From NCBI RefSeq assembly GCF_001941845.1, contig NZ_CP018870.1, forward strand, positions 1,638,501 through 1,702,500: 64,000 nt of DNA. Reading direction: 5' to 3'. Shown here one piece after another: positions 1 through 8,956 of this stretch; within the stretch, counting starts at the first letter, position 1; each line of letters starts with the position of its first letter. Below the pieces are notes generated by a model. The model did not search any database and was not told the DNA's origin. It saw only the letters and a program-made list of their open reading frames with translations. Both the position numbers and the translations under genes were made by a program. This DNA comes from Streptomyces sp. TN58 (GTDB taxonomy: Bacteria; Actinomycetota; Actinomycetes; Streptomycetales; Streptomycetaceae).

Positions 1-240
1 GAGTGGCAGCATCCGTCGCCGTGGCGGTCGCGGCCGGTGCCGGTGTCGCGGCTGCTGGCCGATGTGCACGAGCGGGTGGCGGTGGAGGCGTACCGGCGGG
101 CGACGTCCGGGCCCGAGCCGGGCGGGTCGGAGCGCATCCACGAGGCCCTGGACCGGCTGTCGGCGGCGGCGGAGCTGACGGTCACCGGCAAGCGTCTGGT
201 GGCGGAGCTGCGCTACGAGCTGAAGGCGGTCGGCGCGTGA
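1..240 (+). CDS. C-terminal fragment, probably FxsBH (radical-SAM peptide maturase with degenerate HExxH-type extension)
   Basis: Only the last 79 codons are in the window, in frame from base 1 to a TGA at 238-240. The fragment has a Trp-Arg pair, a helical stretch and the ending LTVTGKRLVAELRYEL. This resembles the C-termini of HExxH-type peptide-modification domains, which usually close with an LTxxG(K/R)xxVxxL helix. In streptomycete FxSxx-COOH clusters the gene before the AAC(3) and FxsC genes is commonly the maturase FxsBH. The assignment therefore rests mainly on the neighbours and is an inference. The stop codon overlaps the next start (GTGA), so the two genes are translationally coupled. 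The catalytic radical-SAM part and the short precursor gene would lie left of the window. Confidence 0.5.
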   Translation, partial: EWQHPSPWRSRPVPVSRLLADVHERVAVEAYRRATSGPEPGGSERIHEALDRLSAAAELTVTGKRLVAELRYELKAVGA

Positions 241-1085
241 GCGGCCACTCCGCCGCCCCTGCCCCGGCGGGTCCGGGCCGGGGCCGCCGGGGCACGGGCG
301 CCCTGCAGCTCGCGGTGCAGCTGCGGCTGCTCGGGGTCCGGCCGGGGATGCGGCTGCTGGTGCACGCGTCCCTGCGCGGGACCGGGCTGCGCGCGGAGCA
401 GCTGCGTGACGCCCTGAGGGGGGTCCTGGGCCCGCGCGGGACGCTGGTGGTGCCCGCGTTCACCCCGGAGAACTCCAGGACGTCCAGCGCCCACCTGGAG
501 CGGATCGCCGGAATGGACGAGGCGGAGGTGCGGGCCTTCGTCGACCGGATGCCGGCCTTCGACCCGGCGAGCACTCCGAGCCACGGCATGGGCTCCTTCG
601 CGGAGTCCGTCCGCACGGCTCCGGGGGCTGCGCGCAGTTCCCATCCCCAGACGTCCTTCGCCGCGCTCGGCGCGGACGCGGAGCGCCTTTGCGCCGGTCA
701 CCGCCTTGAGTGCCACCTCGGCGAGGAGTCGCCCCTGGGAAAGCTGTGCTGGGAGGGCGGGCAGGTACTCATGATCAATGTGGGGTTTTCTGTCTGCACT
801 GCCTTCCATCTCGCGGAGTATCGAATTCCGAAGCCCCCCTTGCGCATGTACGAGTGTGTGGTGAAGGTGAACCTTCCGGAGGGGCGTCAGGGGTCCCGTC
901 AGGAGGGGGTGTGGACCGCATACGAGGACGTCGCGCTGGACGACGGTGATTTCGCGGAGATCGGCAGGGCGTTCCCGGATTCGCGGGTGCGCAGGGGGCG
1001 GGTCGCGGGAGCGTCGGCCATGCTCTTCTCCGTCCCGGACGCCGTCGACCACTCCCTTGACTGGATGACCGAAAACAGACGCTGA
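237..1085 (+). CDS. AAC(3) family N-acetyltransferase of the Fxs cluster
   Basis: A 282-residue protein starting at a GTG that overlaps the previous stop by 4 bp. It shows the Antibiotic_NAT (AAC(3)) fold pattern: LLVHASL near the N-terminus, GTLVVPAFTP, a TPSHGMGSFAESVR segment, RSSHPQTSFAALG at about residues 133-145, GEESPLGKL near 162 and TAFHLAEYR near 192. Family members transfer acetyl from acetyl-CoA to an amine, classically N3 of 2-deoxystreptamine aminoglycosides. The context is a peptide-maturation cluster rather than an antibiotic locus. I therefore infer that the substrate is more likely the Fxs peptide or a cluster product than an aminoglycoside. Family membership is firm; the substrate is unknown. 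Confidence 0.85.
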   Translation: MSGHSAAPAPAGPGRGRRGTGALQLAVQLRLLGVRPGMRLLVHASLRGTGLRAEQLRDALRGVLGPRGTLVVPAFTPENSRTSSAHLERIAGMDEAEVRAFVDRMPAFDPASTPSHGMGSFAESVRTAPGAARSSHPQTSFAALGADAERLCAGHRLECHLGEESPLGKLCWEGGQVLMINVGFSVCTAFHLAEYRIPKPPLRMYECVVKVNLPEGRQGSRQEGVWTAYEDVALDDGDFAEIGRAFPDSRVRRGRVAGASAMLFSVPDAVDHSLDWMTENRR

Positions 1086-1164
1086 TTGACTGGACGATGA
1101 GGGGATGTGGCGAAGCAGCTCCGGAATGATGTTTCTTCGCTCGCAGCTTCGGGACGGGGGGCGT

Positions 1165-2520
1165 GTGCCCGCATCAGTGCAGCCGTATTTTTTTCTCAGT
1201 TATGCGCATACACCGAGATTCGGGGCCGGGGGGCCCGACCCCGACATGTGGGTCGAGCGCCTGTTCCGTGATCTCTGCAGCCATGTCATGGCGCTGACGG
1301 ACCTGCCGGCGGGGGCCGAGGCCGGCTTCATGGACCGGGAGATACGCAGCGGCGAGGGCTGGTCGGAGCGGCTGGGGGCGGCGCTCGCCACCTGCCGGGT
1401 CTTCGTGCCGTTGTTCTCGCCGCGGTACTTCGCCAGTGAGATGTGCGGCAAGGAGTGGTACGCCTTCGCGCAGCGGGCGATCCACCAGGGGGCGTTGAGC
1501 AACCAGCCGGCCGAGGCCATCGTGCCGGCGTTGTGGGTGCCGGTCCCGCCGTCCCAACTCCCCGGCCCTGCCGAGCGGTTGCAGTTCAACCACAACACCT
1601 TCGGCGAGCGGTACGTCACCGACGGGCTGTACGGGCTGATCAAACTGCGGGGCTACGCCGAGCAGTACGAGCGGGCGGTGTACGAGCTCGCCAAGCGCAT
1701 CGTGCGGGTCGCCGAGACGGTCCGCCTGGAACCGGTCCGCCCGCTGGACTACCGGGGCGTGCCGAGCGCCTTCGGCCCCGCGGGCGGCGGCAGCCCCGCC
1801 CGCACCCTGCACGTGACCGTCGCCGCCGCCTCCCGGCACGACCTGCCGGACGGCCGCAGCCCGGAGTACTACGGGGACAGCGCGCTGGAGTGGAACCCGT
1901 ACCACCCGGTGGCGCAGCGGCCCATCGCCTACGTCGCCGAGGACCTGGTCAAGAACCTCAACTACCAGACGAGCATCGGCTCCTTCGACGACGAGGCCGG
2001 ACACTACGACAGCAAGCAGCCGCCGACGCGGCCGGAGATCCTGATCGTCGACCGCTGGGTGGTGGAGGACGAGCACCGCCGCCGGCGTCTGGCCGCCTTC
2101 GACCAGGAGTCCCGTCCGTGGGTCAACGTGGTGGTGCCGTGGAACCGCTACGACCACCAGAGCCGGGCGAAGGAGCTGGAGCTGGCGCGGCGGCTGGAGG
2201 AGACCCTGCCGGTCAAGATGGGCCAGGGCCGGGCGGCCTGCCGGGCCGCCGCCAACGGCGTGGCGAACATGGAGACGCTCGGCCAGATCCTGCCGCAGGT
2301 GGTCGAGGCGGCGGCGCAGCAGTTCCTCAGACACGCCCAGGTCTACCTGCCGGCCGGCAACTCCCCCACCGAACGCCCGCGACTGCTGGGGCCGATGGGG
2401 ATGGGCGGGCCTCCGGCCCCGCGGCCGGCGCCCTTCCCGCCCGACACGTTCGGCGGCCACAACGACGGCAACGACAGCAACGACACCGACCGGGGGGACG
2501 CGGATGACAGCGAGTCGTGA
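1165..2520 (+). CDS. fxsC: TIR-like protein FxsC
   Basis: About 451 residues. It begins with a TIR-like fold: PYFFLSYAHTPRF, then VERLFRDLC, FMDREI (the BB-loop region), VFVPLFSPRYF and SEMCGKEWYAF. The S-x(n)-C-x-x-E pattern in the last segment places a Glu (about residue 97) where catalytic TIR NADases carry theirs. The C-terminal half has LHVTVAAAS, YLPAGNSP and a polar tail typical of the FxsC family. The GTG at 1165 follows a G-rich Shine-Dalgarno stretch and lies just before the conserved part. An upstream ATG at 1105 is in frame but its GAGGGG abuts it with no spacer. The gene overlaps fxsT by 17 bp. Whether it cleaves NAD+ is not known from sequence. Confidence 0.82.
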   Translation: MPASVQPYFFLSYAHTPRFGAGGPDPDMWVERLFRDLCSHVMALTDLPAGAEAGFMDREIRSGEGWSERLGAALATCRVFVPLFSPRYFASEMCGKEWYAFAQRAIHQGALSNQPAEAIVPALWVPVPPSQLPGPAERLQFNHNTFGERYVTDGLYGLIKLRGYAEQYERAVYELAKRIVRVAETVRLEPVRPLDYRGVPSAFGPAGGGSPARTLHVTVAAASRHDLPDGRSPEYYGDSALEWNPYHPVAQRPIAYVAEDLVKNLNYQTSIGSFDDEAGHYDSKQPPTRPEILIVDRWVVEDEHRRRRLAAFDQESRPWVNVVVPWNRYDHQSRAKELELARRLEETLPVKMGQGRAACRAAANGVANMETLGQILPQVVEAAAQQFLRHAQVYLPAGNSPTERPRLLGPMGMGGPPAPRPAPFPPDTFGGHNDGNDSNDTDRGDADDSES

Positions 2521-5500
2521 CAGCGGTGACGGCCGTGACGGACGCATCGTCACCTTCTATTCGTACAAGGGCGGTACGGGCCGCACCATGGCGCTGGCCA
2601 ACACCGCCTGGATCCTGGCGGCCAACGGCAAGCGGGTCCTGGCCGTGGACTGGGACCTGGAGGCCCCGGGCCTGCACCGCTTCTTCCACCCGTTCCTGGA
2701 CCCGTCGACGCTCGGGGCCACCACCGGGGTCATCGACCTGATCAGCGAGTACGCGTGGGCGGCGACCAGTCCGGTGGCGCGGGCGGACGACTGGCACAAG
2801 GACTACGCGCGGATACAGCCGCACGCCGTCTCGCTGACTCCGGAGACGCTGGGCTGGGAGTTCCCGGACGGCGGCACCCTGGACTTCGTCTCGGCGGGCC
2901 GGCAGAACCGCGAGTACTCCGCGACCGTGTCCACCTTCGACTGGGACAACTTCTACGACCGGCTGGGCGGCGGCCTGTTCTTCGACGCCTTACGCGCGGA
3001 CATGAAGAGCAACTACGACTACGTCCTGATCGACAGCCGCACCGGCCTGTCCGACATCGCGGACATCTGCACCGTGCACCTGCCGGACATCCTGGTGGAC
3101 TGCTTCACCCTGTCCGACCAGTCCATCGACGGCGCCGCGTCGGTGGCCCGCCAGATCGACGAGCGGTTCAACGACCGGGGCATCAAGATCTACCCGGTCC
3201 CGATGCGGATCGACGAGGGCGAGAAGGAGAAGGCCGACGCGGGGCGGGCGCTGGCCCGGCTGAAGTTCGACCGGTTCCCGGGCGGCCTGGTCGGGGACGA
3301 GCTCACCTCCTACTGGGGCGCGGTGGAGATCCCGTACCGGCCCTACTACGCCTACGAGGAGACGCTGGCCACCTTCGGCGACGAGGCGGGGCTGACGAAC
3401 TCGCTGCTCTCCGCCTTCGAGCGGCTGACCGCCGTGGTCACCGAGGGCGAGATCACCTCCATGCCGGCGATCGGCGAGGAGGTGCGGCTGCGGATCAGGG
3501 ACGCGTTCACCCGGCGCCGGCCGGCGCTGCCGGCGGACCTGTTCCTGTCCTATGTCGCGGAGAACCGGATGTGGGCCGACTGGATCGAGTCGGTACTGAC
3601 CCGGGCCGGGTTCCGGGTGGTGCCCAAGGACGTCTCGGCCGAGCCGCCGGCGGCGGGCGCCACGGCCTCCGCCGGCGGTGACACCCTGGGCGGCGGTACA
3701 GGTATCAGCGTCGACACCGCGGCCCGGACCGTGGTGCTGCTGTCCACGGCGTACCTGAAGTCGGCGCGGGCCGTGGACGTGTGGGAGCGGGCCGCGGCCG
3801 AGGACCCGACGGGCGGTCGGCGTCAGCTGGTGCCGTTGCGGGTGGGTGACGTACGGCTCGCCACGCCGTACATCGACCGCAACCCGGTGGACCTCTTCCG
3901 GCTCGACGAGGTGCACGCCACGGCGGCGCTGCTGCGTGCGGTGGAGCGGCCGATGGCCCTGCCCGACAGCGTGGCGAGCGCTTCGCAGCCCGGCCCGCGC
4001 TTCCCGGGGACCGTCCCGAAGATCTGGAACGCCCCGCCCCGCAACCCGGGGTTCACCGGCCGCAGCATCGTGCTGGAGCGGATGCGCGACCAGCTCGGCG
4101 GCGGCATGGCGGTGGTGCTGCCGCAGCCGCAGACCCTGTTCGGCCTCGGCGGTGTCGGCAAGACCCAGGTGGCACTGGAGTACGTGCACCGGTTCATGGC
4201 CGACTACGACCTGGTGTGGTGGATCTCCTCGGAGCACACCGACGAGGTGGTCGCCGCGCTCGCGGAGCTGGCCGTACGGCTGGGCGCGCAGACGGGCGAG
4301 GACATGGCGGCCGCCTCGCAGGAGGCGATCGACCTGCTGCGCAGGGGGGTGCCGTCCTCCCGCTGGCTGCTGGTCTTCGACAACGCCGACGATCCCGAGG
4401 CCCTCAAGCGGTTCTTCCCGCCGGGCGGTCCGGGCCATGTGCTGGTGACCTCCCGCAACCAGTCCTGGTCGCAGTACGGTGACGCGCTGCCGGTGGACGT
4501 GTTCCTGCGCGAGGAGTCCATCGAGCACCTTCAGCGCCGGGCCCCCGGGCTGGGCAAGGAGGACGCCGAGCAGGTCGCGATCGCGGTGGGCGACCTGCCG
4601 CTGGCCGTGGAGCAGGCGGGCGCCTGGATCGCGGAGACCGCGACGCCGGTGGCCGCGTACCTGGAACAGCTGGCCCAGCAGACGGCGAGCGTCCTGGGGC
4701 TGAACCAGCCGCCCGGATATCCGGAGCCGGTGGCCGCCACCTGGAACATCTCGATAGAGCGGCTCCAGTCGCGCTCCCCGGCCGCCGTGCGGCTGCTCCA
4801 GCTGTGCGCGTTCCTGGCGCCGGAGCCGATCTCGGCGAACCTGCTGTACAGCAAGGAGATGATCGACGCCCTCAAGCCGTACGACGCCTCCCTCCAGGAG
4901 AAGCTGGTGCTGGGGCGGGTGATCCGGGAGATCGGCCGGTTCGCGCTGGCCAAGGTCGACCAGGTCAGCAACAGCATCCAGGTGCACCGGCTGGTGCAGG
5001 CGGTGATCCGTTCGCAGATGCCGGAGGAGGAGCAGCGGGAGGCCCGGCACGCCGTCCACCGGATCCTGGCCGGGGCCCGGCCGGACGACGACGAGCCGAT
5101 CGACAACCCGGAGACGTGGCCCCGGTTCAACACCATCTGGTCGCACCTCTCGCCGTCCGAGGCCCGGTACTGCAAGGAGCCGGAGACGCGCAGGCTGCTG
5201 ATCGACCGGGTCCGCTACCTGTGGAAGCGCGGCGACTTCAAGACCGCCTACCAGCTCGGCGAGGAACTGCGCGACGCCTGGAAGGAGATGCTGGGCAACG
5301 ACGACCTCCAGTACCTGTACCTGCGCTTCCACCTGTCGAACATCCTGCGCTCGCAGGGCCGGTTCGTGGAGGCGAAGGAGCTGGACGAGGTCACGCTGGA
5401 ACGGCAGAAGGCGGTGCTGGGGCCCTCGCACCCGCACACGTACATGACCATGAGCGGTCTGGCCAACACCCTCGGCGCACTGGGCCAGTACGGGCAGGCG

Positions 5501-6505
5501 ATGGAGCTGGCGACCGAGGCGCACGAGGGGTTCAGCCAGATCTTCCACGAGGCGCATCCGCGCACGCTGGCGGCGGCGAACAACCTGGCGCTGAACCTGC
5601 GGCTGGTGGGCCAGTACACCAGAGCCCGTGAGATCGACACCGAGGTGTACGACCTGCGCACGGAGGTGCTGGGGCCGGAGCACCCGTACACCCTGTCCTC
5701 CGCGCAGAACCTGGCCCGCGACCTGCGCGAGGTGGGCCGGTACGAGGACTCGGTGCAGCTGCTGAGCCGGACGTACGAGATCTACAAGCGGACGCTGGGC
5801 CGGGCGTTCCCGGGCACCCTGTCGGCCGCGAAGAACCTGGCGGTGTCGCTGCGCAGGGCGGGGCAGCTGGAGGACGCGCTGCGGCTGACCACGGCCACCC
5901 GGGCCCGCTACCGGGCCAAGTACACCTCGGTCAACCCGGACCTGCTCTCCTGCGAACTGAACCTGGCGTCGGACCTGTTCGCGACCGGTGACCCGGGCGG
6001 GGCGCGGGATCTGGCGCAGGAGGTGGTGGACGAGTACATGAAGGTCCCGGGCGAGCGGCACCCGTACACCCTGGCGGCCGTGAACAACCTGGCGGTCTTC
6101 CACTGGGGCACGGGTGCGGCGGAACCGGCGGAGGCGATGCTGCGGCACACGATCCGGCTGATGCGGGACGTCCTGGGCGACAACCACCCGCACACGGTCT
6201 TCGCCCAGCTCAACCTGGCCAACGCCCGCGCCGACCTGGGCGATCCGGAGGGGGCCCTGGAGCTGGAGCGGCTCGCGGTGCTGCGGCTGCGCGAGGCTCT
6301 GGGGGCGCACCATCCGGAGACCCTGGCGAGCAGCTCCAACATGGCGATCAGCCTGGACTCGATGGGGCGCAGGGAGGAGGCGGCCCGGCTGCGCGCCGAG
6401 GTGGTGGCCGAGCTGACCCGGCTGCTCGGCGAGGAGCACAGCCTCACCCGGTACGCCCGTGACGAGCGGCGGATCCACCGGGATCTGGAGCCTCTCGCCG
6501 TGTGA
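2504..6505 (+). CDS. fxsT: FxsT: ParA-like ATPase, TIR, NB-ARC and TPR multidomain protein of the FxSxx-COOH system
   Basis: A 1333-residue protein. Residues 15-300 form a ParA/MinD-like ATPase with the deviant Walker A YSYKGGTGRT, in which Arg replaces the usual second Lys, followed by LAVDWDLEAPG and YVLIDSRTG. Residues about 341-480 are a TIR-like domain (LFLSYVAENRMWADWIES, TVVLLSTAYLKS). Residues about 515-800 are an NB-ARC STAND NTPase with GLGGVGKTQVALEY as P-loop (near 547) and LLVFDNADDP as Walker B (near 621). From about 900 to 1310 there are repeated TPR units with the HPxTLxxxxNLA signature. STAND-TPR proteins are ligand-triggered oligomerising switches. The match to the FxSxx-COOH system TPR protein is strong. 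The start is ATG with GGGGGG upstream. Confidence 0.85.
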   Translation: MTASRDSGDGRDGRIVTFYSYKGGTGRTMALANTAWILAANGKRVLAVDWDLEAPGLHRFFHPFLDPSTLGATTGVIDLISEYAWAATSPVARADDWHKDYARIQPHAVSLTPETLGWEFPDGGTLDFVSAGRQNREYSATVSTFDWDNFYDRLGGGLFFDALRADMKSNYDYVLIDSRTGLSDIADICTVHLPDILVDCFTLSDQSIDGAASVARQIDERFNDRGIKIYPVPMRIDEGEKEKADAGRALARLKFDRFPGGLVGDELTSYWGAVEIPYRPYYAYEETLATFGDEAGLTNSLLSAFERLTAVVTEGEITSMPAIGEEVRLRIRDAFTRRRPALPADLFLSYVAENRMWADWIESVLTRAGFRVVPKDVSAEPPAAGATASAGGDTLGGGTGISVDTAARTVVLLSTAYLKSARAVDVWERAAAEDPTGGRRQLVPLRVGDVRLATPYIDRNPVDLFRLDEVHATAALLRAVERPMALPDSVASASQPGPRFPGTVPKIWNAPPRNPGFTGRSIVLERMRDQLGGGMAVVLPQPQTLFGLGGVGKTQVALEYVHRFMADYDLVWWISSEHTDEVVAALAELAVRLGAQTGEDMAAASQEAIDLLRRGVPSSRWLLVFDNADDPEALKRFFPPGGPGHVLVTSRNQSWSQYGDALPVDVFLREESIEHLQRRAPGLGKEDAEQVAIAVGDLPLAVEQAGAWIAETATPVAAYLEQLAQQTASVLGLNQPPGYPEPVAATWNISIERLQSRSPAAVRLLQLCAFLAPEPISANLLYSKEMIDALKPYDASLQEKLVLGRVIREIGRFALAKVDQVSNSIQVHRLVQAVIRSQMPEEEQREARHAVHRILAGARPDDDEPIDNPETWPRFNTIWSHLSPSEARYCKEPETRRLLIDRVRYLWKRGDFKTAYQLGEELRDAWKEMLGNDDLQYLYLRFHLSNILRSQGRFVEAKELDEVTLERQKAVLGPSHPHTYMTMSGLANTLGALGQYGQAMELATEAHEGFSQIFHEAHPRTLAAANNLALNLRLVGQYTRAREIDTEVYDLRTEVLGPEHPYTLSSAQNLARDLREVGRYEDSVQLLSRTYEIYKRTLGRAFPGTLSAAKNLAVSLRRAGQLEDALRLTTATRARYRAKYTSVNPDLLSCELNLASDLFATGDPGGARDLAQEVVDEYMKVPGERHPYTLAAVNNLAVFHWGTGAAEPAEAMLRHTIRLMRDVLGDNHPHTVFAQLNLANARADLGDPEGALELERLAVLRLREALGAHHPETLASSSNMAISLDSMGRREEAARLRAEVVAELTRLLGEEHSLTRYARDERRIHRDLEPLAV

Positions 6506-6568: not shown

Positions 6569-7477
6569 GTGACCGACAGCATGACCTTTCGAAACGAGGA
6601 CCTGCCGGCCCTCTTCCACCACACGGACCAGGCGGCGATCTCCCGGCAGCGGGAGTCCACGCAGGCGACGAGGACCCAGCTGCTGCTGCTCGTCCTGGCG
6701 GCGGGGGCGGCGGCGCTGCCGCCGGGGCCCGAGATCGGCTCGCTGCACCTCTTCGGGCTGCTGAGCGTGCTCGGTTACGCGGGGGTGCTGGGGGTGGGCA
6801 TGCGGGCGACCCGGCGCCGGGCCCGCCCGCAGTGGCAGCTGAACCGCAGTGCGGCGGAGTTCATCAAGTCCCTGGCCTGGCGGTACGCGGTGCACGGGGC
6901 GCCGTTCGGCAGCGACGTGGCCGATCCCGGGGAGGCGTACCACGCGCGGCTTGAGGCGGGTCTGGCCGAGCTGCGGAAGATGGGCTGGGAGGATCCGCGG
7001 GCGTCGGGAGCCGTGCCGGAGGGTGCGGAGATCACCGGGGCGATGCGGCGGCTGCGCGGCAGGGACTACCACGTGCGGCGGGAGACGTACGTCCGGGACC
7101 GGCTGATCGAGCAGCGCAACTGGTACCGGCGGCGGACGGAGGTGTCCCGGCGGGCGACACACCTGTGGTCGTGGACGATCGTCCTGCTGACCTGTCTGGC
7201 GCTGCTGTTCGCCGTGCTGAGGGCGTTCGGTTCGGGTCCGGGGACGGGCCTGACGGGGCTGCTGAGCACGGCGGCGGCGGCCGGTATCGCCTGGAACGAG
7301 GTACGCCGCCACCACCCGCTGATCGAGGCGCACACCCTGATCGAGCAGGATCTGGCGGCGATGATGGTCGTGATGCAGACGACCATCACGGAGTCGCAGT
7401 GGCCCACGTCGGTGTACGAGACCGAGCGGTACGTCTCGCCGCAGCACACGGACTGGTTGGCCCGGCACAGCAGTTGA
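6569..7477 (+). CDS. SLATT/DUF4231-type membrane protein
   Basis: A 302-residue protein starting at GTG 6569 behind AAGGGGGG. It has two membrane hairpins. The first is LLLLVLAAGAAALP followed by LLSVLGYAGVLGVGM (about residues 34-75). The second is WSWTIVLLTCLALLFAVL followed by TGLLSTAAAAGIAW (about 205-252). Before the second hairpin lies YVRDRLIEQRNWYRRR, matching the YxxxRxxxQxxWY pattern of DUF4231/SLATT proteins. SLATT domains are predicted pore-forming effectors tied to SMODS or SLOG nucleotide signalling. The gene starts 63 bp after fxsT on the same strand, so it is probably co-transcribed, and it is convergent with a SLOG gene 19 bp away. The effector role is inferred from family and context. 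Confidence 0.7.
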   Translation: MTDSMTFRNEDLPALFHHTDQAAISRQRESTQATRTQLLLLVLAAGAAALPPGPEIGSLHLFGLLSVLGYAGVLGVGMRATRRRARPQWQLNRSAAEFIKSLAWRYAVHGAPFGSDVADPGEAYHARLEAGLAELRKMGWEDPRASGAVPEGAEITGAMRRLRGRDYHVRRETYVRDRLIEQRNWYRRRTEVSRRATHLWSWTIVLLTCLALLFAVLRAFGSGPGTGLTGLLSTAAAAGIAWNEVRRHHPLIEAHTLIEQDLAAMMVVMQTTITESQWPTSVYETERYVSPQHTDWLARHSS

Positions 7478-7496: not shown

Positions 7497-7976
7497 TCAG
7501 TCCCGGGTCACGCCTTCGCGCCACAGGACGGTGACCGGCTTGCCGAGGGACCGGGCGTAGGCGACGATCTCGGCGGTGCCGCCGTGTCCGCGGGCGGGCC
7601 GGCCGTCCCAGACGGCGACGAGCCGGTCGCAGGTGTCGGCGATGTAGGTGCCCGCGGCGTAGTAGGCCTCGTCCGTGGAGCGGGCGAAGTCCATGCGGAC
7701 CTCCTGGGTGGCCCGGCGCCTGAGGCGGCGGTAGCGGTCGAGCGCTTCGGGGCCCTCGAAGGCCTCTTCGTAGTCCGCGCTGGGGATCACCACGGTCAGG
7801 TCGGCGCCGCAGTCGAGTGCGACGGCGGCGAAGAGCTGGTCCGCGCCGTCGGCGAGGCTGGAGAGGGCTTCCAGCGGCCCTTCGTGGCCGCCCAGTACGG
7901 CCCGCAGGCCGTTCTCCACATGGCCGAGCACCGATGCGGGGAGGGACCGGTGCCCGGTCACGCCGATGCGCTTCAT
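7497..7976 (-). CDS. SLOG-domain nucleotide-binding protein
   Basis: A 159-residue single-domain protein. It opens with MKRIGVTGHRSLP, a Rossmann-like glycine loop. SSLADGADQLFAAVALDCGA and LTVVIPSADYEEAF follow, then DRLVAVWDGRPARGHGGTAEIV near the C-terminus. This is the layout of the DprA/LOG-like SLOG superfamily, whose members sense or process nucleotide derivatives, including NAD-related molecules. It faces the DUF4231/SLATT gene across 19 bp; SLOG-SLATT pairing is a recognised association. The ligand cannot be read from the sequence. Confidence 0.7.
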   Translation of the reverse strand: MKRIGVTGHRSLPASVLGHVENGLRAVLGGHEGPLEALSSLADGADQLFAAVALDCGADLTVVIPSADYEEAFEGPEALDRYRRLRRRATQEVRMDFARSTDEAYYAAGTYIADTCDRLVAVWDGRPARGHGGTAEIVAYARSLGKPVTVLWREGVTRD

Positions 7977-8074: not shown

Positions 8075-8956
8075 TCAGTAGACGCTGACCCCGTAGGCGT
8101 TGAGGGCTTCGACCACGGGCTGGAAGAAGGTGGTGCCGCCCGAGGAGCAGTTTCCGCTGCCGCCGGAGGTGAGGCCGACGGCGCGGGTGCCCGAGTAGAG
8201 CGGGCCGCCGCTGTCGCCCGGCTCGGCGCACACGTTGGTGCGGATCATGCCGTAGACGATGTCGCCGCCGCCGTAGTTGACGGTGGCGTTGAGGCCGGTG
8301 ACCCGGCCGCTGTGGGTGCCGGTGGTGGAGCCGCGCCGGGTCACGGACATGTTGACCGTGGCGTTGACGGCGCTGGTGATGTCCTGGCCGCCGACGGTCC
8401 CCGGGGGTGCGGGCGTGTTGCTGGCGTACTTGACGAGGCCGTAGTCGTTGTTGGGGAAGCTGGAGCCGGCCGTGGAGCCGAGGACGTTGGTACGGGCGGA
8501 GTTCGTCCACCAGGTGCCGGCGCCGTCGGTGCAGTGCCCGGCGGTGAGGGCGTAGTAGTTGGAGCCGCTGCGGACGTTGAAGCCGAGCGAGCAGCGCCAG
8601 CTGCTCGCGTAGATGGCGTCGCCGCCGGAGGCCAGCTTGGTGAGCTTGCCGGGGATGCGCTCGATGCGCAGGGCGCCTGCGTCGGCTCCGGCCTCGCGCT
8701 TGATTCTCGCGATGGCCGCTGCGGAGACGGTGGAGTCGGCGGAGACCACGAGGGTTCCGGTGGCGGGGTCGGCGTGCCAGGCGGTGCCCGCTACGTCGGC
8801 GCGCAGGACGGAGGCGCCGGCCGAGGCGAGCCGGTCGGCGCTGAATCCTCCGTCCTGCGGGTCCGCGCTCGCCGTGGGTGCGGCGAGCGCTGCGGCGGCG
8901 GCCAGGCCGGTGGCCACCGCGAGCAGCCTGTTACGGGTGGTGCGCTTGATCCTCAC
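8075..8956 (-). CDS. streptogrisin B-like secreted serine protease (S1 family)
   Basis: A 293-residue pre-pro-protein. The start is GTG at 8954-8956 with AGGAGG about 9 nt upstream; a longer frame to 9142 exists but lacks any signal. Residues 1-32 form a signal peptide (basic N-terminus, Ala-rich core, ending near TASA). The propeptide runs to about residue 108. The mature enzyme begins at [11 protein letters not shown], matching the start of streptogrisin B, and is 185 residues, the same length. The catalytic triad is His141 (TAGHC), Asp171 (NNDYG) and Ser249 (GDSGGP). Cys122/142 and Cys243/270 are the two expected disulfides. It should be an extracellular chymotrypsin-like peptidase that activates itself by removing its propeptide. 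Confidence 0.93.

Follow-up and report, generated by a model that had tools for sequence, protein, structure and literature searches.

In the passages of Kaur et al. 2020 that deal with them, standalone FxSxx peptide systems include an AP-ATPase with an inactive MinD/ParA-like domain, and the peptide is proposed to be a toxin or a signal; the Fxs core itself was named long ago, and the same work cites Haft and Basu 2011 in this context (PMC7159879). Here, we describe an Fxs (FxSxx-COOH) cluster of Streptomyces sp. TN58 that spans the left edge of a stretch of 64,000 nucleotides (the window, G000:C1:1638501-1702500) on a 7.59 Mb chromosome. To a known core system, it adds a SLATT membrane protein and a SLOG-fold protein, both of them strongly linked to that core, as well as an apparent division of labour between the TIR domains of FxsC and FxsT. 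An Fxs-type peptide cluster at the start of the window had been recognized by the original prediction, which was made from the sequence of the window, and every gene that it named is found in its place. Its notion of an 'undescribed system', however, cannot be upheld, because NCBIfam already names FxsA, FxsB, FxsBH, FxsC and FxsT, and the layout appears in the FxSxx passages of Kaur et al. 2020 (PMC7159879).

All core genes exceed their NCBIfam cut-offs (TIGR04268, TIGR04269, NF040587, TIGR04276/NF040588 and NF040586), and FxsT is an AP-ATPase with the extra MinD/ParA-like domain described in those passages. In contrast to the described core, the locus also contains genes for an AAC(3)/FrbF-like enzyme, a SLATT protein and a SLOG-fold protein. 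Where the relevant passages of Kaur et al. 2020 treat SLATT and SLOG, they place SLATT with GAP1 GTPase systems and SLOG with vWA systems rather than with standalone FxSxx systems, and an earlier mention of the combination is possible.

Other described systems share individual parts with this locus. In Thoeris (ThsB TIR; ThsA SIR2-SLOG or TM-macro), isomers of cyclic ADP-ribose (cADPR) made by the TIR protein are reported to act via a SLOG domain (PMC11204291), and the joint encoding of a TIR domain with the catalytic glutamate, a SLOG fold and a membrane module is common to both systems. In the window, however, the SLOG protein and the membrane module have a gene each, and the set also includes a ribosomally synthesized and post-translationally modified peptide (RiPP) and a STAND protein. 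No ThsA-type SIR2 or macro domain was found in the six window proteins scanned, and the Thoeris models of PADLOC gave no match in the four proteins scanned. The GAP1-N1 GTPase conflict systems outlined by Kaur et al. 2020 also bring together TIR-type effectors and a SLATT gene, the product of which is predicted to be a nucleotide-responsive pore (PMC7159879), but the window genes scanned include no GAP1 or GTPase and instead feature a peptide system and a STAND sensor. DRT10, which consists of a reverse transcriptase, a non-coding RNA and a SLATT protein, requires the latter for phage defence according to a preprint (PMC12632851); in both cases SLATT is the partner of an enzyme making a supposed signal, but the window has no reverse transcriptase and the supposed signal would be a TIR product, not cDNA. 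Finally, FxsT resembles the NLR/STAND immune proteins in having NB-ARC, a TPR part and TIR, but its TIR is devoid of the glutamate, such that catalysis would take place in a second protein, FxsC. An experimental account of FxsC or FxsT was not found in the open-licence literature searched. To our knowledge, there is no other RiPP-gated pathway leading from a TIR protein to the membrane, nor did a search of open-licence literature reveal one.

Linkage of SLATT and SLOG genes to the Fxs core

The SLATT gene (6569..7477, + strand) encodes a membrane protein of 302 residues with a SLATT_3-SLATT_1 (DUF4231) organization (PF18184, SLATT_3, 128 bits; PF18181, SLATT_1, 131 bits; also NF033610 and NF033634). 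The gene set originally proposed, i.e. the fxsBH fragment, the AAC(3) gene, fxsC and fxsT, is present with all four members but stops one gene early, as SLATT begins 63 bases after fxsT. Across a gap of 19 bases, SLATT converges with the gene for a protein of 159 residues (7497..7976, − strand), which is identified as a SLOG-fold protein by its AlphaFold model (mean pLDDT 94.5) and structural neighbours. The best solved neighbour is YpsA (2nx2; E 1.3e-8, TM 0.76), followed by ShosA, DprA and LOG proteins and, at a lower rank, TRPM2 (E 7.9e-3); Pfam returned no match up to E 0.1. YpsA has been tied to cell division, as mentioned in a study of Thoeris proteins (PMC7272460).

FxsC scores above its cut-off in 45 of the 121 genomes of a draw from the genus. 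SLATT_3 is found in 35 of these 45 genomes versus 4 of the 76 others (Fisher 5e-17), and the SLOG type (at least 142 bits) in 34 of the 45 versus none of the 76 (Fisher 8e-21), with p-values that exaggerate independence because the genomes are related. The SLOG type is delimited by a fall in scores from 142 to 123 bits, and relatives with 123 bits or less do occur in genomes without FxsC. Both genes are also physically close to the core: 32 of 40 SLATT_3 places (counted from 42 rows, omitting a match under the cut-off in G015 and, in G022, the second part of a match that had been split) and 31 of 34 SLOG places are located within 12 kb of an FxsC. When loci were collected by SLOG instead, i.e. 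by taking the 80 top-scoring out of 356 SLOG relatives from named genomes—close relatives only, each with at least 202 bits, and in part overlapping the 121-genome draw—a convergent SLATT gene was present in 80 of 80 loci, within 200 bases in 77 and within 4.1 kb in the other three, and 77 of the 80 stretches contained FxsB, FxsC or FxsT. Genes for FxsB, an AAC(3)-type enzyme, FxsC, FxsT, SLATT and SLOG are all present, for example, in S. lavendulae CCM 3239 (L104) and S. avidinii JCM 4726 (L087). Among the three that did not, one is a contig of just 4.2 kb and two (L112 and L141) keep an AAC(3)-type gene.

For the genus draw, 58 FxsC loci were examined in stretches of up to 20 kb, with two places below the cut-off (in G033 and G058) omitted and two split matches merged. 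Consistent with the assumption that FxsC belongs with Fxs partners, FxsB accompanies it in 49 and FxsT in 51 of these loci; an alpha/beta hydrolase (ABH) is found in 41, SLATT in 32, SLOG in 31 and an AAC(3)-type gene in 30. A clustering of all remaining open reading frames (ORFs) around the loci yielded mostly antisense shadows.

The TIR domains of FxsC and FxsT

FxsC (1105..2520, +; NF040588, 237 bits versus a cut-off of 130; TIGR04276, 212 versus 55) consists of an N-terminal TIR domain (residues ~27-205) and a C-terminal alpha/beta domain (~230-415), the fold of which can be placed only weakly. FxsT (2504..6505, +; NF040586, 1050 bits versus 300) has exactly the 1333 residues and the modules that had been predicted: a KGGVGR-type ParA-like ATPase (14-218; KGGTGRT at residue 22), TIR_2 (347-471), NB-ARC (544-723; GLGGVGKT at 547) and then TPRs. 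The description of the whole cluster as 'fused' is appropriate for this protein alone, which does join ParA-like, TIR, NB-ARC and TPR parts; the components of the cluster are otherwise separate co-directional genes. Among 51 FxsT proteins, all keep the ParA loop as KGG[TVA]GRT and 47 keep the P-loop of NB-ARC; by its domains, FxsT looks like a STAND switch.

What separates the two TIR domains is a single position. A joint alignment included 57 of the 58 FxsC (L064, with 35 bits, was left out) and 47 of the 51 FxsT (without L049 and L052, which fell below a 30-bit filter, and L029 and L064, which had no match). The presumed catalytic glutamate occurs in every one of the 57 FxsC (Glu117 in the window) and in none of the 47 FxsT, which have Val (24), Leu (16) or one of Ile, Ala, Thr and Phe (7) instead, with Val426 in the window. 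The position of this residue in the FxsC TIR is presumed from known TIR alignments; Glu117 also aligns with a glutamate of PdTIR (3h16), albeit in a weak match (E 0.11). As stated for TIR NADases in the literature, their activity depends on a catalytic glutamate (PMC11204291).

This does not by itself make FxsC an NADase, and its TIR domain could also be a scaffold or hydrolyse another nucleotide, with the glutamate being structural or serving another substrate. Precedents are B. cereus ThsB, for which one study reports no NAD+ cleavage (PMC7272460), and EcThsB2, which has the glutamate, yet is described as showing no NADase activity (PMC11204291). On the other hand, the glutamate is invariant in 57 FxsC proteins, although some pairs are just 25-33% identical, and is lost in the TIR of FxsT, a pattern that argues for chemistry in the one and binding in the other and leaves this explanation quite unlikely.

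Some variants and side matches of the two proteins may be mentioned. The ParA-like part of FxsT (residues 14-203, window 2504-3200) matches the PADLOC candidate family PDC-M28B with 78 bits. In two proteins of more than 1500 residues (L033, 11436-16163, −; L038, 3984-8555, +), FxsC domains are found behind about 10 TPRs, and neither FxsB nor NB-ARC was matched in the surrounding stretches; no new effector domain was found when these fusions were examined. Two further loci (L044 and L047) have FxsC-FxsT pairs without FxsB, next to additional KGGVGR proteins and to short proteins that have FLSWSG close to the N-terminus and may be TIR- or SEFIR-like effectors.

Operon, precursor and maturation enzymes

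Across the left edge of the window, which is spanned by the stretch L007, the + strand carries in this order the genes for ABH (L007:10699-11601, outside the window), fxsA (L007:11795-11959), fxsBH (L007:11988-14240, i.e. G000:C1:1636488-1638740, with its 3' end at window 1..240), the AAC(3)-family gene (237..1085), fxsC, fxsT and SLATT. A gap of 28 bases between fxsA and fxsBH, an overlap of 4 (GTGA) between fxsBH and the AAC(3)-family gene, a gap of 19 before fxsC, an overlap of 17 between fxsC and fxsT and the gap of 63 before SLATT suggest, by the shortness of these overlaps and gaps, that fxsA through SLATT form one transcript. On the − strand, the SLOG-fold gene at 7497-7976 is followed by that for a secreted S1 protease of the alpha-lytic type (8075..8953; PF00089, PF02983), a flanking gene that is probably outside the system. 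Beyond ABH, another membrane protein gene (L007:8877-9911, +) recurs in 13 loci; its product stays below the threshold for ABC-2 transporters (17.7 bits versus a cut-off of 31.6), and a similar gene lies close to ABH in a stretch where fxs is absent (L069, 13070-14185).

A short gene ending in FxSxx-stop next to a radical-SAM gene had been expected to the left of the window, and both were found there. The fxsA precursor gene of 54 codons starts with GTG preceded by GAGGACGG, ends 28 bases upstream of fxsBH and encodes a product that terminates with ...RPVQAPIFNSAL-stop, i.e. in FNSAL; on a reading of this ORF with 66 residues, TIGR04268 scores 33 bits versus a cut-off of 28. An FxSxx-ending ORF adjoins FxsB in 40 of 49 loci of the genus draw and is present in 69 of 72 loci of the SLOG-anchored set. 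The same ending turned up in 111 of 1960 random 1.9-kb windows from the same stretches, a control with a less strict definition of an ORF; under that definition, the loci themselves reach 41 of 49, three of them with chance-looking tails. The C-terminus is FNSAL in 16 of 41 precursors.

The complete fxsBH starts 2013 bases left of the window and encodes a radical-SAM/SPASM maturase of 750 residues (TIGR04269, 585 bits versus 370; NF040587, 417 versus 225) in which CxxxCxxC is located at residue 18 and the beta-hydroxylase extension is of the inactivated form. The HExxH motif, by which an aKG-HExxH beta-hydroxylase is recognized, was not found in the FxsBH of the window. As 4 of 49 FxsBH proteins (L023, L025, L039 and L045) still hold it as HEFQH or HEYQH, a loss of the hydroxylase in the branch to which the window belongs is probable. 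In ChlBH, a relative fused to a radical-SAM part, HExxH is reported in a preprint to serve alpha-ketoglutarate-dependent beta-hydroxylation (PMC12636437); with this function, and with the motif missing here, the metallopeptidase reading of Kaur et al. is unsuited to the window. No evident leader protease was seen among the operon genes. For the chemistry of FxsBH we rely on MscB, which we take to be an enzyme of the FxsB family (IPR026335). The FNS of FxsA would then be expected to become a cyclophane, since MscB is described as linking C4 of Phe to C-beta of Ser, thus forming a Phe-Ser cyclophane (PMC11002830).

The AAC(3)/FrbF-like N-acetyltransferase (282 residues; PF02522, 223 bits) has FrbF (3sma, 144 bits) as its closest solved structure by sequence, and the motif [ST]xFHxxE is found in 30 of 30 loci that carry such a gene. 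Its scores are far below the NCBIfam cut-offs for resistance enzymes (at best 140 bits versus 270, with NF033082), and despite its family it need not be a drug-resistance gene but is a probable tailoring enzyme of the peptide. An acetyltransferase of the FrbF type would also suit natural-product tailoring in a different scenario, in which the peptide is a toxin or antibiotic, FxsT and FxsC act as sensor, self-protection or dose control, and SLATT and SLOG are mere bystanders of a chromosomal block. 'Peptide toxin or signal' is indeed the wording that the FxSxx passages of Kaur et al. 2020 allow for (PMC7159879). Yet there is no transporter gene between fxsA and SLOG at the window locus, the membrane protein gene beyond ABH is below the ABC-2 cut-off and has a similar counterpart at a site without fxs, and the absence of the SLOG type from all 76 FxsC-less genomes is unlike the behaviour of a bystander. 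We therefore consider a toxin or antibiotic unlikely.

Flanks and history of the locus

Two main arrangements of the locus occur, S1P> SLOG> SLATT< [fxs>] ABH< and, for the window itself, ABH> [fxs>] SLATT> SLOG< S1P< (S1P, S1 protease). These are the same two flanks around an fxs operon that has been inverted, and despite this inversion the SLATT/SLOG pair remains beside the operon. A quickly built tree of 51 FxsT sequences recovers the loci with the window's arrangement as a single clade of nine (SH-aLRT 100), so that one inversion suffices. In five stretches without fxs (L067, L069, L070, L071 and L077, the last from G022, another contig of which carries a distant FxsC), ABH is convergent with an S1 protease at a distance of 113-720 bases. 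For this reason, ABH and the S1 protease are likely to be flanks, between which [fxs + SLATT + SLOG] is a block that was inserted or lost, and ABH was set aside as a core member, even if it may have some role in the system.

One locus (L063) appears to combine parts of different origin: its SLATT, SLOG and AAC(3)-type proteins share 59-72% identity with one branch, to which its FxsB, FxsC and FxsT are much less similar (25-47% identity); the latter three instead resemble a distant type (L062), at 66-73% identity. Thus, the Fxs core seems to be exchanged as a whole, with SLATT, SLOG and the AAC(3)-type gene staying in place. Such core exchange fits either a working partnership or recombination via shared flanks.

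A tentative order of action

For FxsC and FxsT, the link to SLOG and SLATT together with the glutamate split between the TIR domains provides a testable order, i.e. peptide, sensor, TIR enzyme, nucleotide and membrane. We tentatively favour a model—a quite possible one—in which the peptide, or a disturbance of it, is sensed by FxsT, which acts through FxsC and an NAD-derived nucleotide on SLOG and SLATT at the membrane; each step beyond gene content is inferred. By analogy to its characterized relative, FxsB would join Phe to Ser within F-N-S to form a three-residue cyclophane near the C-terminus of FxsA, which the acetyltransferase might then cap (a guess). FxsT as a STAND sensor would be either restrained or fired by this peptide. 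Once activated, it would oligomerize and its non-catalytic TIR would gather FxsC, an assignment suggested by the glutamate being absent from the TIR of FxsT and present in that of FxsC. FxsC would cleave NAD+ and generate a nucleotide of the ADP-ribose type, SLOG would bind this nucleotide and SLATT would alter the membrane, resulting in a growth stop or cell death; this part of the order is derived from the SLOG precedent of Thoeris, the pore predictions for SLATT and DRT10. In clusters without SLATT and SLOG, the pathway may end at NAD+ loss or use another effector. No shared replacement effector was seen in 18 loci without SLATT, which were judged by eye with a crude gene caller. In its most explicit form, with a ribosomal cyclophane peptide gating a split NLR, FxsT serving as the sensor and recruiting the live FxsC TIR by means of its own dead one, and SLOG reading the nucleotide and opening a SLATT pore, the model is doubtful. 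Should the order of action hold, peptide natural products and TIR immunity would be brought together in a multicellular bacterium.

A number of observations weigh against this order of action. SLATT is missing from 26 of the 58 FxsC stretches, some of which are short contigs, and the SLOG type from 11 of the 45 FxsC genomes; because of this, SLATT and SLOG count as accessories in some Fxs systems and are not essential to all, even if at least one of the SLATT-less stretches is a contig of 4.3 kb from a genome with SLATT elsewhere, on a different contig. Vice versa, L066 (9168-10809, genome G057), L112 and L141 keep SLATT and SLOG with no Fxs gene in the stretch, and these pairs are either remnants or stand-alone pairs. 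Moreover, 31 of the 32 SLATT-bearing loci fall inside one FxsT clade of 33, and the linkage could thus reflect one inherited block. ABH, which is found in 40 of 45 FxsC genomes versus 5 of 76 others at E 1e-60 (p 6e-21) and within 12 kb of an FxsC at 41 of 48 places, is linked as strongly as SLOG, so association alone is no proof of function. At the protein level, the AlphaFold confidence for the FxsC TIR is low (mean pLDDT 53), its best solved TIR by sequence is the weak 3h16 match, and the TIR of FxsT had no match among solved TIRs. Finally, the cluster occupies a chromosomal site and is rarely found on plasmids (5 of 72,556 records), unlike a typical mobile defence system.

Distribution of the Fxs core and its chromosomal site

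The latter two properties are compatible with regulation no less than with defence, and the system could serve peptide signalling or developmental timing rather than immunity, with FxsT reading a cyclophane regulator and FxsC, SLOG and SLATT adjusting NAD+ or the membrane state during growth. The chromosomal site, with flanks shared between loci with and without fxs, the rarity on plasmids and the conserved precursor C-terminus all speak for such a role. So does the phylum draw, where 4 of 396 genomes, each from Streptomyces, had FxsC above its cut-off, even though single relatives do occur in Actinacidiphila (L142) and on a Kitasatospora plasmid; with its thin sampling, this draw is no proof of absence outside the genus. 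However, TIR, STAND, SLATT and SLOG are typical parts of conflict systems as surveyed in the passages of Kaur et al. 2020 (PMC7159879), and both the patchy occurrence in 45 of 121 genomes and the exchange of the core resemble the behaviour of arms-race genes. A signalling or developmental function in place of immunity seems rather doubtful.

As a minor observation on the site itself, a SepF gene (PF04472, 83.5 bits for the copy in L066) is located a few kb from the fxs site irrespective of whether fxs is present, with copies at 6951-7391 (−) in L066, 14226-14660 in L067 and 5056-5505 in L068.

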